This document shows, piece by piece, positions 2,445-7,196 of a stretch of DNA of 35,428 nt. Made by a program: the position numbers and the translations under genes. A model generated the notes under the pieces. It was not told the DNA's origin, made no database searches, and saw only the letters and a list, made by a program, of their open reading frames with translations. This DNA is from Mesorhizobium sp. (GTDB lineage: Bacteria > Pseudomonadota > Alphaproteobacteria > Rhizobiales > Rhizobiaceae): contig NZ_JAFKID010000043.1 of assembly GCF_017306545.1 (NCBI RefSeq), positions 1 through 35,428 on the forward strand. The letters are read 5' to 3'. Each line of letters begins with the position of its first letter. Positions within the stretch are counted from its first letter, which is position 1.

Positions 2445-3188
2445 ATGCTCGAACGCAGCCAGTTCGCCACGTCTTTCCTGCCGGTATCCGGATCGGCTCC
2501 GGTCGAATGGCGCATCGAACCCGGCCTGACGGACTATGCGGCGGCGCTGGCCTTCATGGAAGCGCGCGCCGGGGCGATCCGCGCCGGCACCGCCGACGAA
2601 ATGGTGTGGCTGGTCGAACATCCGCCGCTCTACACCGCCGGCACCAGCGCCCAGCCCGCCGACCTGATCGACCCCGACCGCTTCCCCGTTTATGCGGCGG
2701 GCCGCGGCGGCGAATACACCTATCACGGCCCCGGCCAGCGCGTTGCCTACGTCATGCTCGACCTGAAACGCCGGCGCGAGGACGTGCGCGCCTTCGTCGC
2801 GGCGCTTGAGGCATGGATCATCCAGACTCTGGCCGCCTTCTCCGTGCGCGGCGAGCGGCGCGAGGATCGCGTCGGCGTCTGGGTTGTGCGGCCCGACCGC
2901 CCGCCGATGCCGGACGGAACACCTGCCGAAGACAAGATCGCCGCCATCGGCATCCGGCTGCGCAAATGGGTGAGCTTCCACGGCATCGCCATCAATGTCG
3001 AACCGGACCTGACACATTTCGGCGGCATCGTCCCCTGCGGCGTCGCCGACCACGGCGTCACCAGCCTCGTCGACCTCGGCCTGCCGGTGACGATGGCCGA
3101 TCTCGACCTGGCCCTGAAGGCTGCCTTCGAGATCGTGTTCGGTCCCGCCGCGTCCTCCAAGGCCCTCCCCGCCCGCAAGGCCGGCTGA
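2445..3188 (+). CDS. lipB: Lipoyl(octanoyl) transferase LipB
   Basis: LipB moves octanoyl groups from acyl carrier protein to the lipoyl domains of 2-oxoacid dehydrogenases, in the cytosol. The 247-residue protein shows the BPL/LplA/LipB fold motifs: [10 protein letters not shown] near 57-66, [13 protein letters not shown] at 87-98, the catalytic lysine in [10 protein letters not shown] (K164), and the catalytic cysteine in [10 protein letters not shown] (C198). The start at ATG 2445 was preferred over an upstream TTG at 2403, because family members begin close to this point and the upstream extension is basic and unconserved in character. The Shine-Dalgarno is weak. A GC hairpin (3180-3196) overlaps the stop codon but has no T-tract. 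Confidence 0.95.
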
Positions 3189-3286: not shown

Positions 3287-3373
3287 TCACATCGCGCCGA
3301 TCCACATCGCCATCGAGACGAGAAAGGTGCTCATGCAAACCAGCGAGACGACATCGTGAACCAGATCGGTCAT
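3287..3373 (-). CDS. 28-aa membrane micro-peptide, putatively SOS-regulated
   Basis: The frame encodes 28 residues: a short acidic head (MTDLVHDVVS) and then one hydrophobic segment (LVCMSTFLVSMAMWIGAM, residues 11-28) long enough to cross the inner membrane. A perfect Shine-Dalgarno AGGAGG (3384-3379) sits five bases before the ATG, one of the best in the window, which is strong evidence that it is translated. Directly upstream are three tandem GTTC half-sites of the alphaproteobacterial LexA box, so induction by DNA damage is likely. Size, topology and apparent control match SidA of Caulobacter, a 29-residue SOS-induced division inhibitor, though I claim analogy and not homology. It is downstream of lolD on the same strand but 320 bp away, and converges on lipB. 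Confidence 0.68.
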   Translation of the reverse strand: MTDLVHDVVSLVCMSTFLVSMAMWIGAM

Positions 3374-3692
3374 AATTCCCTCCTGTTTTTAATATGTTCG
3401 TAATTTGTTCTATTTTTGTTCAAATGTCAAACGAACAGAGGGCACAAAATCGCCGGCGGCGGTTTCGCGCGTCGCAGAGTTAAGAAAAGGTTGCAGGGCG
3501 GTTTCCCGACCGCGGCGAAGCGGCCGGACAGGCAACGGCTACGGTCCGTCGCAAACCCTTACAGAATTCGCCGCGGGAGCATGTGGCGTGGATTTTCGGG
3601 AACCGACGCGGCACACATAAGGACATGTGAGCACCGAAAACGCACAAAACCGCGCCTGATGTCCGCAACGGCGGAACTGTCCAACGGGGCTC
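3374..3692. other. Gene-free 319-bp gap upstream of the micro-peptide gene
   Basis: Apart from the Shine-Dalgarno, the AT-rich leader, the LexA boxes and a possible -35 element (all within 3374-3436), I see no gene, repeat or terminator here. The open frames in 3405-3668 have no ribosome-binding sites and no family resemblance. Confidence 0.6.
3396..3421 (-). promoter_or_regulatory. Tandem LexA (SOS) boxes
   Basis: On the plus strand GTTC occurs at 3396-3399, 3407-3410 and 3418-3421, each pair separated by exactly seven bases. The alphaproteobacterial LexA operator is the direct repeat GTTC-N7-GTTC, so this site contains two overlapping operators. The bases around them (TTGTTC, T-rich spacers) also match the usual form. 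A -35-like TTGACA lies on the minus strand at 3430-3425; the -10 is not clear but would fall inside the boxes. The nearest start codon is that of the micro-peptide, 23 bases away. Confidence 0.72.
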
Positions 3693-4391
3693 CTAGAGCT
3701 GGGCGGCAGGCAGCGGCACCACCCTGCCCTCGGCCAGCGTCACGCGGCGGTCCATGCGCGCGGCGAGTTCATGGTTGTGGGTAGCGATCAGCGCCGCCAG
3801 TCCCGACTGGCGCACCAGCGCCTCCAGCGCGTCGAAAACATAAGACGCGGTGGCCGGATCGAGATTGCCGGTCGGCTCGTCGGCGAACAGCACCAGCGGC
3901 GCATTGGCCACCGCGCGCGCGATCGCCACGCGCTGCTGCTCGCCGCCCGACAGTTCGGACGGGCGGTGCTGCGCGCGCTTGCCGATCTGCATGTAGTCGA
4001 GCAGTTGGGCCGCGCGCTCGCCCGCCTCCTTGCGCCCCAACCCCTTGATGAGCTGCGGCATCATGATGTTTTCCAGCGCCGAGAATTCCGGCAGCAGATG
4101 ATGGAACTGGTAGACGAAGCCGACATCGTTGCGGCGTATGGCGGTGCGCTCCTCATCCGACAGCCGCCCGCAGGCGCGCCCGGACAGGATGACGTCGCCG
4201 GCGTCGGGCCGTTCCAGCAGGCCGGCCGTATGCAGCAGCGTCGACTTGCCGGTGCCGGACGGCGCCACCAGCGCCACCATCTCGCCGCGATGCAGCGAAA
4301 AATCGGCGCCGTTGAGGATCGTCAGCCGCCGCGGCCCCTGCACATAGTGCCGCTCGACGCCCCGTAATTCGATAACCGTCGGCGCCGCCAT
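3693..4391 (-). CDS. lolD: Lipoprotein-releasing ABC transporter, ATPase LolD
   Basis: LolD powers extraction of mature lipoproteins from the outer face of the inner membrane and their transfer to LolA. The 232-residue protein has a Walker A motif APSGTGKST at 43-51, a Q-loop near [20 protein letters not shown] (93-112), signature LSGGEQQR at 147-154, Walker B LVLFADEP at 166-173 with catalytic E172, and a switch histidine in ATHN. The [11 protein letters not shown] stretch is typical of the LolD/MacB branch. The start ATG overlaps the lolC stop (ATGA), so translation is coupled. It is the last gene of proS-lolC-lolD. Confidence 0.95.
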
Positions 4392-5695
4392 CACTCGTAC
4401 CTCAGGGCTTCGACCGGATCGAGCCGCGCCGCCCGCCATGCCGGAAACAGCGTGGCTAGGAACGACAGCACCAGCGCCATGGCGATGACCGACAGCGTTT
4501 CGCGCAGGTCCATGCGCGCCGGAAGTTGCGACAGGAAATAGAGCTCCGGATTGAACAGCACCGTGCCCGACAGCCACGAGAAGAACTCGCGGATGCGCTC
4601 GATGTTGAGGCACACCACCATACCGAGAAGAACCCCGGCGACGGTTCCAACGACGCCGATCGCCGCCCCCGTCATCAGGAAGATGCGCAGGATCGCGCCG
4701 CGCGTCGCCCCCATGGTGCGCAGGATAGCGATGTCGTGCCCTTTGTCCTTCACCAGCATCACAAGGCCTGAAATGATGTTGAGCGCCGCCACCAGAACGA
4801 TCAGCGTCAGGATCATGAACATGACATTGCGCTCGACCTCCAGCGCGGAGAAGAAGGTCTGGTTGCGCTGGCGCCAATCGGTCATGTAGATCTGCCGCTG
4901 CGCCGCCGCCTCCACCTTCGGCTTCAACGCATCGACATTGTCGGGATTGTCGACGTAAATCTCGATGCTCTGCGCCTTGCCTTCCATGTTGAAGTAGAGC
5001 TGGGCTTCCGAGAACGGCATGTAGATGATGGAACTGTCGTATTCCGACATGCCCACTTCGAAGATGGCGGCGACCTTGTAGCCCTTCAGCCGTGGCGTGG
5101 TGCCGAGCGGCGTCACGTCGCCATCCGGCGAGATCAGCGTGATGGTGTCGCCGACGACCAGACCGAGCGCCTCGGCCATGCGTGTGCCGATGGCGACGCC
5201 CTCGCCGCCGTCGAAGCCTTCCAGCGAACCCTGCTTGATGTTGCTTGCCACCAGGGTCATTTTTTCGAGATCGGCGCCGCGGATGCCGCGCACCAGTGCG
5301 CCGGTGCCCGAGCCGACATTGCCTTGCGCCAGCACCTGCCCGTCGATCAGCGGGATGGCGTATTTCACGCCCTGCACCTTGTTGATGCGGTCGGCCACCG
5401 CCGCGTAATCCTCCAGCGGCATGTCCACCGGCGTGACGATCAGATGGCCGTTGATGCCGAGGATGCGGGTCAACAGTTCGGCGCGAAAGCCGTTCATCAC
5501 CGCCATGACGACAATGAGGGTTGCGACGCCCAGCATGATGCCGAGGAAGGAGATCGAGGCGATGACCGAGATCACCGTCTCCTTGCGGCGTGAACGCAGG
5601 TAGCGCCACGCCACCATCCGCTCGAAGCCGGAAAACGCGCCGGCGCCGGCCTTGCCCTGCTTCGCCGGCGCGGCGGCTGCGGCGGCGTTGCTCAC
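4391..5695 (-). CDS. lolC: Lipoprotein-releasing system permease LolC/E (LolF type)
   Basis: This 434-residue inner-membrane subunit has a first transmembrane helix about residues 42-68 (after the [20 protein letters not shown] motif of LolC/E), a large periplasmic MacB-PCD domain to about 275, and three C-terminal helices forming an FtsX domain ending in [17 protein letters not shown]. Only one permease gene is present, so the complex is probably a homodimer as in many alphaproteobacteria. The start is GTG at 5695-5693, overlapping the proS stop in GTGA. An Ala/Lys-rich N-terminal tail of about 20 residues precedes the conserved region, so a later start is possible, but the overlap favours this one. 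Confidence 0.94.
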
Positions 5696-7020
5696 GCCCC
5701 TGTCTCCACGGAAGCCAGCAGGTCTTCCACCTTCCGGACCTCGCGCTCGCCGGTTCTGCGGTTCTTCACCTCGACCGTGCCGTCGCCGACGCCGCGCGGC
5801 CCGACGATCACCTGCCAGGGCAGGCCGATCAGGTCGGCGGTGGCGAACTTGGCGCCGGGGCGCTGGTCGGTGTCGTCGTAGAGCACGTCGCGCCCGGCTT
5901 TCTCATAGGCGGCGTAGAGCTTCTCGCAGAGCGCGTCGCAACCCGCCTCACCGGGCTTCATGTTGATCAGCCCGACGTCGAACGGCGCCACGGCCTCCGG
6001 CCAGATGATGCCGTTGTCGTCGTGGCTGGCCTCGATGATGGCGGCGATCAGCCGCGACGGCCCGATGCCGTAGGAGCCCATGGAGACGAAATGGTCCTTG
6101 CCGTCCGGCCCCGTCACCTTGGCGCCCATCGGCTTGGAGTACTTTTCGCCGAAATGGAAGATGTGGCCGACCTCGATGCCGCGCGCGGAAAGCTTGTGCG
6201 CCTCCGGCACCTTGGCCCAGGCCGCCTCGTCGTGCATCTCGTCGGTCGCCGCATAGGGCGTCGTCCATTCCTTGACGATGCCGCCGATCTCGGCGTCGCT
6301 GGTGAAATCGGTGTCCTCGCCCGGCACCCGCAGCGCAAGATAGTCGCGGTCGCAGAACACCTGGCTCTCGCCGGTCTCGGCCAGGATGATGAATTCGTGA
6401 CTGAGGTCGCCGCCGATCGGGCCGGTGTCGGCGCGCATCGGAATCGCCTGCAAGCCCATGCGCGTGAAGGTGCGCAGGTAGGACACGAACATGCGGTTAT
6501 AGGCCGCCTTCGCGCCCTCGTAGTCGATATCGAAGGAATAGGCGTCCTTCATCAGGAATTCGCGTGAACGCATGACGCCGAAGCGCGGCCTCACCTCGTC
6601 GCGGAACTTCCACTGGATGTGGTAGAGGTTGAGCGGCAGGTCCTTGTAGGAACGCACGTAGGAGCGGAAGATCTCCGTCACCATCTCCTCGTTGGTCGGA
6701 CCGAAGAGCATGTCGCGCTCGTGCCGGTCCTTGATGCGCAGCATCTCCTTGCCGTAGTCGTCGTAGCGGCCGCTTTCGCGCCACAGGTCGGCCGACTGGA
6801 TTGTCGGCATCAGGATTTCCAGCGCGCCGGCCCGGTTCTGCTCCTCGCGCACGATGCGGCAGACCTTGTCCAGCACCTTCTTGCCGAGCGGCAGCCAGGA
6901 GAAAGAGCCGGCAGCCTGCTGACGGATCATGCCCGCGCGCAGCATGAGGCGATGCGAGACGATCTCGGCCTCACGGGGATTTTCTTTAAGAATAGGCAGG
7001 AAGTAGCGCGACAGACGCAT
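5692..7020 (-). CDS. proS: Prolyl-tRNA synthetase
   Basis: The enzyme charges tRNA-Pro. From the ATG at 7020 the protein is 442 residues, the standard length of the compact alphaproteobacterial ProS that lacks the inserted editing domain. The class II motifs are visible: GPTNEE at 107-112, motif 2 [10 protein letters not shown] at 139-148, and a late motif 3 [16 protein letters not shown], followed by a C-terminal anticodon-binding domain containing [19 protein letters not shown]. The frame stays open for 44 codons further upstream to 7152, but that stretch is basic, unlike the family, and overlaps an inverted repeat. It is first of three coupled genes with lolC and lolD. Confidence 0.97.
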
Positions 7021-7098
7021 GGAAGGTTCCGTGAGAGAGGCAACGCGCGCCAGAATCGGCGCGAAGCAGGCTGTTTGCCTGGGCTTCATAGCCATTTC

Positions 7099-7149
7099 AT
7101 GGCCGAATGGAAACCCGCACGAACGCCGCCGACGGCAGCATTCGGCCAT
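7099..7149. repeat. 11-bp perfect inverted repeat in the proS leader
   Basis: ATGGCCGAATG (7099-7109) and CATTCGGCCAT (7139-7149) are exact reverse complements with a 29-nt loop. The dyad lies 79-129 bases upstream of proS and could form a stem in the leader mRNA. No T-box elements were recognised. Confidence 0.6.
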
Positions 7150-7196
7150 CACGACGGTCGCGTTTCAACAAGACGAGCAAGACCAGCGAAGAATGA

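Follow-up and report, generated by a model that had tools for sequence, protein, structure and literature searches.

A 28-residue membrane peptide gene with conserved LexA-type boxes in Mesorhizobium is a probable orthologue of Caulobacter sidA

Introduction

Does a reading frame of only 28 codons downstream of a lolD-like gene in Mesorhizobium encode a checkpoint peptide of the SOS response? The question arises in the window, by which we mean the whole 35,428-nucleotide stretch of Mesorhizobium sp. DNA (contig NZ_JAFKID010000043.1) that was analysed, where the original prediction had proposed a LexA-controlled micro-gene resembling SidA of Caulobacter crescentus (CCNA_02004). SidA is described in PMC4211646 as a 29-amino-acid inner-membrane protein that interacts with FtsW. 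A literature search, which did not extend to the paper that first described SidA, found no publication on relatives of SidA in Rhizobiales; an earlier mention is possible.

Results

The peptide gene in the window

The frame had been described from the letters as 28 codons behind an AGGAGG that encode one membrane-spanning segment and lie next to three GTTC half-sites at 11-bp spacing, a description that proved exact. The gene and its ribosome site are:

3287..3373, minus strand: SidA-family gene for a 28-residue membrane peptide, ATG at 3371-3373 and TGA at 3287-3289, assigned from the substitution pattern and family searches
3379..3384, minus strand: Shine-Dalgarno AGGAGG, 5 nt ahead of the peptide ATG

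The 28 codons translate to MTDLVHDVVSLVCMSTFLVSMAMWIGAM, in which a single hydrophobic segment reaches a 17-residue Kyte-Doolittle maximum of 1.97; the Caulobacter peptide introduced below reaches 2.24. Among the 196 ATG-initiated frames of 24-48 codons in the window, 11 attain a hydrophobic maximum of at least 1.5, and one of these 11, the frame at 3287-3373, is preceded within 100 nt by an exact box. When the window peptide gene was compared with eight loci of the same genus, substitutions at codon positions 1:2:3 stood at 10:3:73, a sum over eight related and non-independent pairwise comparisons, and 3-4 of the 28 peptide positions differed. AGGAG or GGAG occupies the Shine-Dalgarno position in the eight same-genus loci printed, and the D, F and W positions are kept in all 12 rows of an alignment of relatives (A1). 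Searches of Pfam and NCBIfam returned no family for three family peptides, and a plasmid tblastn with peptide P0001 and one other gave no match. Computation supports both the gene and selection on its peptide; almost certainly, the frame at 3287-3373 on the minus strand is genuine and related to the gene for the Caulobacter division inhibitor SidA.

LexA-type boxes and promoter

Three GTTC half-sites stand in 11-bp steps at 3396-3421, upstream of the peptide gene, and form two overlapping boxes next to a promoter-like element:

3396..3410, plus strand: LexA-type box GTTC-N7-GTTC, exact, reading GAAC-N7-GAAC in the direction of the gene and conserved in relatives
3407..3421, plus strand: second LexA-type box GTTC-N7-GTTC, exact, the middle half-site being common to both boxes
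3425..3430, minus strand: TTGACA, a likely -35 element that directly precedes the boxes and is kept in same-genus loci

For Alphaproteobacteria the LexA motif has been published as GTTC-N7-GTTC (PMC3323433 and PMC12700426). Counted by themselves, the boxes lie close to chance expectation: the window has two matches against 0.98 expected, and 28 of 100 shuffled windows have at least two. The count as sole evidence was rejected as not significant, and the boxes are significant because they are conserved. Each of the eight same-genus loci keeps at least one exact box together with a GGAG-containing ribosome site, and TTGAC[A/T] stands at the same place in all nine printed loci (the window and the eight same-genus loci). 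No consensus -10 was found for the TTGACA at 3425-3430, and a promoter scan did not report this element. On both strands of the whole genome the motif occurs at 133 sites, against 83 for the reversed motif, and one hit to the LexA DNA-binding domain exceeded the cut-off. Binding of LexA at these boxes, and induction of the peptide gene by DNA damage, are predictions from the DNA.

Relatives within the order

At E≤1, a search with the single peptide sequence gave matches in 22 of 150 genomes, namely the window genome, three clear relatives of the same genus, and 18 genomes with 20 weak loci. In 9 of these 20 an exact box lies 39-61 nt upstream of the matched stretch, so part of the weak matches is real. 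The 12-row profile A1, built from first-round relatives, was used on 397 genomes of the order and matched 263 of them at E≤0.5, including 113 at E<1e-3, of which 12 had themselves supplied profile rows. We then fetched 60 further profile matches, picked by protein similarity only. The frame is at most 40 residues long in all 60, and an exact GAAC-N7-GAAC lies within 100 nt upstream in 42 (48 with one mismatch allowed); the reversed motif is found there in none exactly and in seven with one mismatch, and an exact box occurs in the 100 nt downstream in two. The proposal that the gene is a LexA target gains support from this conservation.

In 12 of 15 named Rhizobiales-type genomes the peptide was matched, three giving no match. 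In all 12 members, which include Rhizobium tropici, R. tibeticum, Shinella, Allorhizobium, Microvirga and a Bosea MAG, dnaE is the next gene, and a box lies within 120 nt in 10 (exact) or 11 (at most one mismatch). The Rhizobium members printed have no Trp near the C-terminal end. Two dnaE-linked relatives, L446 and L458, have no box. The earlier expectation that the peptide and its GTTC repeats recur beside lolD in other genomes holds in that they are widely found, though they are not universal.

Two further observations concern individual lineages. In two genomes of family f44 the peptide is present as two diverged copies each (L082 and L102 in G084; L103 and L104 in G273), these four loci having no exact box within 200 nt; elsewhere in f44 an exact box stands at -153 (L064), and a one-mismatch site at -141 is seen in L080, L082, L094 and L109. 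A 1.4 Mb genome of the order, G003, carries the peptide with an exact box and dnaE next (L110 and L416).

The slot between lolD and dnaE

The neighbours of the peptide gene in the window are:

3693..4391, minus strand: lolD-like ABC ATPase, the upstream neighbour (Pfam ABC_tran)
4391..5695, minus strand: lolC-like permease (Pfam MacB_PCD and FtsX)
5692..7152, minus strand: proS-like class II aminoacyl-tRNA synthetase (Pfam tRNA-synt_2b, HGTP_anticodon)
2445..3188, plus strand: lipB-like gene, converging on the peptide gene (Pfam LplA-B_cat)

We take the ABC ATPase, the permease and the synthetase to be lolD, lolC and proS, respectively. The slot common to the family was read from 20 larger regions, hand-chosen, 14 within the order and six outside it: dnaE lies downstream on the same strand in 19 of the 20 and lolD upstream on the same strand in 16. 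The end of lolD is 0.2 to 3.6 kb from the peptide in these regions, so other DNA can intervene. In the window the lolD side of the slot is present and lipB stands on the other side, the side of dnaE in most relatives examined.

Nine close relatives (eight of the same genus, one of the same family) have no dnaE within the fetched 1.5 kb. The peptide and its boxes are kept in the window and in all nine of these relatives without an adjoining dnaE; lipB was seen by the peptide in five of the nine, and within 1.5 kb lolD was present in six, lolC alone in one and neither in two. The dnaE of the window genome lies on another contig, outside the lolD-peptide slot (L290, G000:C50:146409-146840), and in this one genome no exact box was found in the 500 nt upstream of it. 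In the one genome where both were placed, then, it is with the peptide, not with dnaE, that the box has stayed after parting. These results suggest that LexA sites in front of dnaE belong in the first place to the peptide gene; where peptide and dnaE adjoin, read-through into dnaE is likely.

The Caulobacterales peptide

When the order profile was run on 13 named Caulobacterales genomes it gave 22 weak matches, four of which (E 0.1-0.6) are frames of 29-32 codons with LexA-like boxes. The Caulobacter peptide is exactly 29 residues long, with lolD upstream and dnaE next. Used as a query, it matched 17 of 19 named genomes, Maricaulis and a Robiginitomaculum MAG being the two Caulobacterales-type genomes without a match. 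In all 16 printed Caulobacterales loci the peptide is preceded, at 28-77 nt, by two or three boxes, none with more than one mismatch, and dnaE follows it after 6-258 nt; at least one box is exact in nine of these loci. A pattern search for an exact box, GGAG and ATG in eight Caulobacterales genomes gave 22 matches, none of them the peptide, which was missed because in these genomes one mismatch in its boxes is frequent, or GGAG is absent from its ribosome site.

The likeness of the Caulobacterales peptides to the order profile is partly selected, as they were first found with that profile, and a rule blind to the peptide sequence was therefore applied: a box with at most one mismatch, followed by a hydrophobic frame of 24-48 codons, no more than 900 nt before dnaE. 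In 16 of 17 Caulobacterales loci the SidA-like frame was the only one that this rule chose, and the controls (reversed motif; antisense strand) chose nothing (0/17). The exception, L287, fails the rule despite having boxes, peptide and dnaE.

The identity of the Caulobacter peptide with SidA was approached through locus tags. Published tags are CCNA_02004 for sidA (PMC10769358), CC1926 for dnaE and CC1983 for recN (PMC1839093), and ccna_02062 for recN (PMC12700426). The recN tags are offset by 79, which places dnaE near CCNA_02005 or slightly below it, a position obtained by arithmetic, the cited passages stating no adjacency. CCNA_02004 falls about where dnaE must lie, and we therefore take the Caulobacter peptide as SidA. 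On length, slot, boxes and locus tags, rather than a named SidA sequence, the identification is almost certain.

A scan upstream of dnaE blind to the peptide sequence

A similar rule was applied more broadly. dnaE was located in 58 of 61 genomes of the order and in 75 of 96 genomes of the class, and 57 and 74 upstream stretches, respectively, were scanned for an exact box with a hydrophobic frame of 24-48 codons 25-100 nt after it. Among the 74 class stretches, L386 has a length of only 156 nt. The rule was passed by 26 of the 57 order loci (30 with one mismatch) and seven of the 74 class loci, and the controls with the reversed motif and on the antisense strand gave none in either set (0/57 and 0/74 each). 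Nothing passed in 27 of the 57 order loci, one mismatch being allowed, and in 67 of the 74 class loci. The genomes overlap those of the profile searches, so that the rule is blind and the sample is not. A comparison of boxes at dnaE loci with and without the peptide (25/30 vs 2/27) was discarded as circular because the first set had been chosen by the box. One locus, L323 in G058, has two exact boxes at 478 and 454 nt before the dnaE match, and what follows them is a frame of 103 codons, not a micropeptide.

Relatives outside the order

In most of the blind-scan frames from outside the order, a basic or polar residue and an Asp stand close to the N-terminus, and a Trp comes late. The order profile A2, run on 385 class genomes, gave five non-order hits at E≤0.01, against 3.9 expected by chance; two of the five have an exact box and dnaE. 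A broader profile, A5, which includes the non-order blind-scan frames, matched 32 of the 385 genomes at E≤0.02 (about eight expected by chance), comprising three in the order, 27 non-order matches that were examined and two that were left out. Seven of the 27 had supplied rows and 20 were new. Of the new loci 16 adjoin dnaE, and an exact box is present in 15; the 16 are not all independent, since seven are in row-supplying genera and three, from family f115, are similar to the Caulobacterales rows. The other four of the 20 are false, two lying in a long YidC-like frame and two having neither box nor dnaE.

Relatedness of the peptide profiles

Profile-profile comparison of the order set (A2) with the Caulobacterales set (A3) gave a score of 26.7 and a probability of 92%, and the set from other alphaproteobacterial families (A4) scored 37.6 with A2 and 27.4 with A3. 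In controls with columns shuffled within three blocks, which roughly keep the layout of charge and hydrophobicity, none of 200 reached the real score in any of the three pairs. With the first residue removed the scores were 24.1 for A2-A3 and 33.3 and 23.5 for the pairs with A4, and no control of 100 reached them in any pair. To avoid selection by the profile, A2 was also compared with six untrimmed non-order blind-scan peptides and scored 33.8 (controls 0/100); a seventh, from G400, was excluded, as it had already come up in a search with the profile. At the level of sequence, the order and Caulobacterales profiles are related beyond composition.

The match between the order and Caulobacterales profiles spans the first 21 residues only, and the ends differ; the surface that contacts FtsW may therefore not be kept. 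Since the Caulobacterales slot holds a 29-residue peptide and the profiles are related beyond composition, the window peptide is probably an orthologue of SidA and not merely SidA-like. The peptide in the Caulobacterales slot and the profile comparison carry the SidA-like reading further than it had been proposed.

Discussion

Comparison with known systems

The window peptide resembles SidA in size (28 against 29 residues), in its one membrane segment, in the GTTC-N7-GTTC-type boxes in front, in its place downstream of lolD and in an N-terminal pattern of a polar residue, D or E, then A/S-L or -F, with a Phe ten residues after the D/E. It differs in its diverged C-terminal half, in having lipB and not dnaE downstream, and in the arrangement of its boxes, which form an overlapping 11-bp triple in the window and are mostly pairs 17-18 nt apart, many with one mismatch, in Caulobacter and the other Caulobacterales loci (L271-L287).

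DidA of Caulobacter, a damage-induced small membrane division inhibitor, has 71 residues and is SOS-independent, under DriD (PMC4211646); with 28 residues and LexA-type boxes, the window peptide does not belong with it. The Gram-positive SOS division inhibitors YneA, SosA and ChiZ resemble the predicted working of the window peptide, being damage-induced membrane proteins that act on division. YneA, which carries an extra LysM domain, is described as acting on FtsW (PMC13396833, in part).

Very short SOS-controlled membrane peptides are also found in E. coli, as TisB and DinQ, which are toxic and under antisense RNA control. DinQ is reported as an SOS-controlled toxic peptide with a single membrane span and antisense RNAs (PMC3567139, in part).

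Proposed mechanism and alternatives

We consider it very likely that the window peptide gene is an SOS checkpoint gene of the SidA family. LexA would occupy the tandem boxes between TTGACA and the start codon and keep the gene off; upon DNA damage, RecA would trigger cleavage of LexA and a short transcript would be made, these first steps following from the boxes and the one LexA DNA-binding-domain hit. From the strong ribosome site the 28-residue peptide would be translated and its one helix inserted in the inner membrane. By analogy with Caulobacter SidA, from which FtsW contact and division arrest are transferred, the peptide may then act on the late divisome at FtsW and delay constriction until the damage is repaired.

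The alternatives concern what the frame is and what its product acts on. A chance frame beside chance GTTC repeats would agree with a box count near expectation in the window, and is already refuted by the conservation of peptide, boxes and slot, which leaves it a negligible probability. The position of most relatives examined directly upstream of dnaE would also suit a leader peptide of dnaE, the LexA boxes regulating dnaE and the peptide having no function of its own. We hold this to be very improbable: peptide and boxes persist in the window and the nine close relatives with no dnaE within 1.5 kb, the dnaE of the one window genome lacks an exact box in its upstream 500 nt, and the peptide is under selection, with the D, F and W positions present in every row of A1.

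Granted a functional SOS-induced peptide, it might depolarise the membrane in the manner of TisB or DinQ and leave the divisome unblocked. Its size class, SOS box and single hydrophobic segment fit such a role, which we nevertheless judge improbable given that the slot and the profile are common to the window peptide and the Caulobacter peptide. A SidA-family division inhibitor could also have as its target a divisome or elongation protein other than FtsW; the divergence of the Caulobacterales and order sequences after their common N-terminal half, and the missing C-terminal Trp of the printed Rhizobium members, speak for this possibility, and against it stand the interaction of SidA itself with FtsW (PMC4211646, in part) and the want of evidence for another target. 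We regard it as unlikely, and retain the SidA-family checkpoint acting on FtsW as the preferred reading.

Meaning for the family

For the family as a whole, SidA is likely to be no peculiarity of Caulobacter but an ancient alphaproteobacterial checkpoint micropeptide encoded between lolD and dnaE. Its sequence would have diverged while the LexA box stayed with it, across Caulobacterales, Rhizobiales and several other families, and the LexA sites credited to dnaE in such genomes would first be the promoter of this overlooked gene. If this is true, a likely division brake would be named for many bacteria of the soil and of plants, which form a large group, and its fixed place before dnaE would make it testable gene by gene. 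The divergent SidA peptides would offer a natural set for mapping the contact with FtsW, and the LexA sites in front of dnaE would be read differently.
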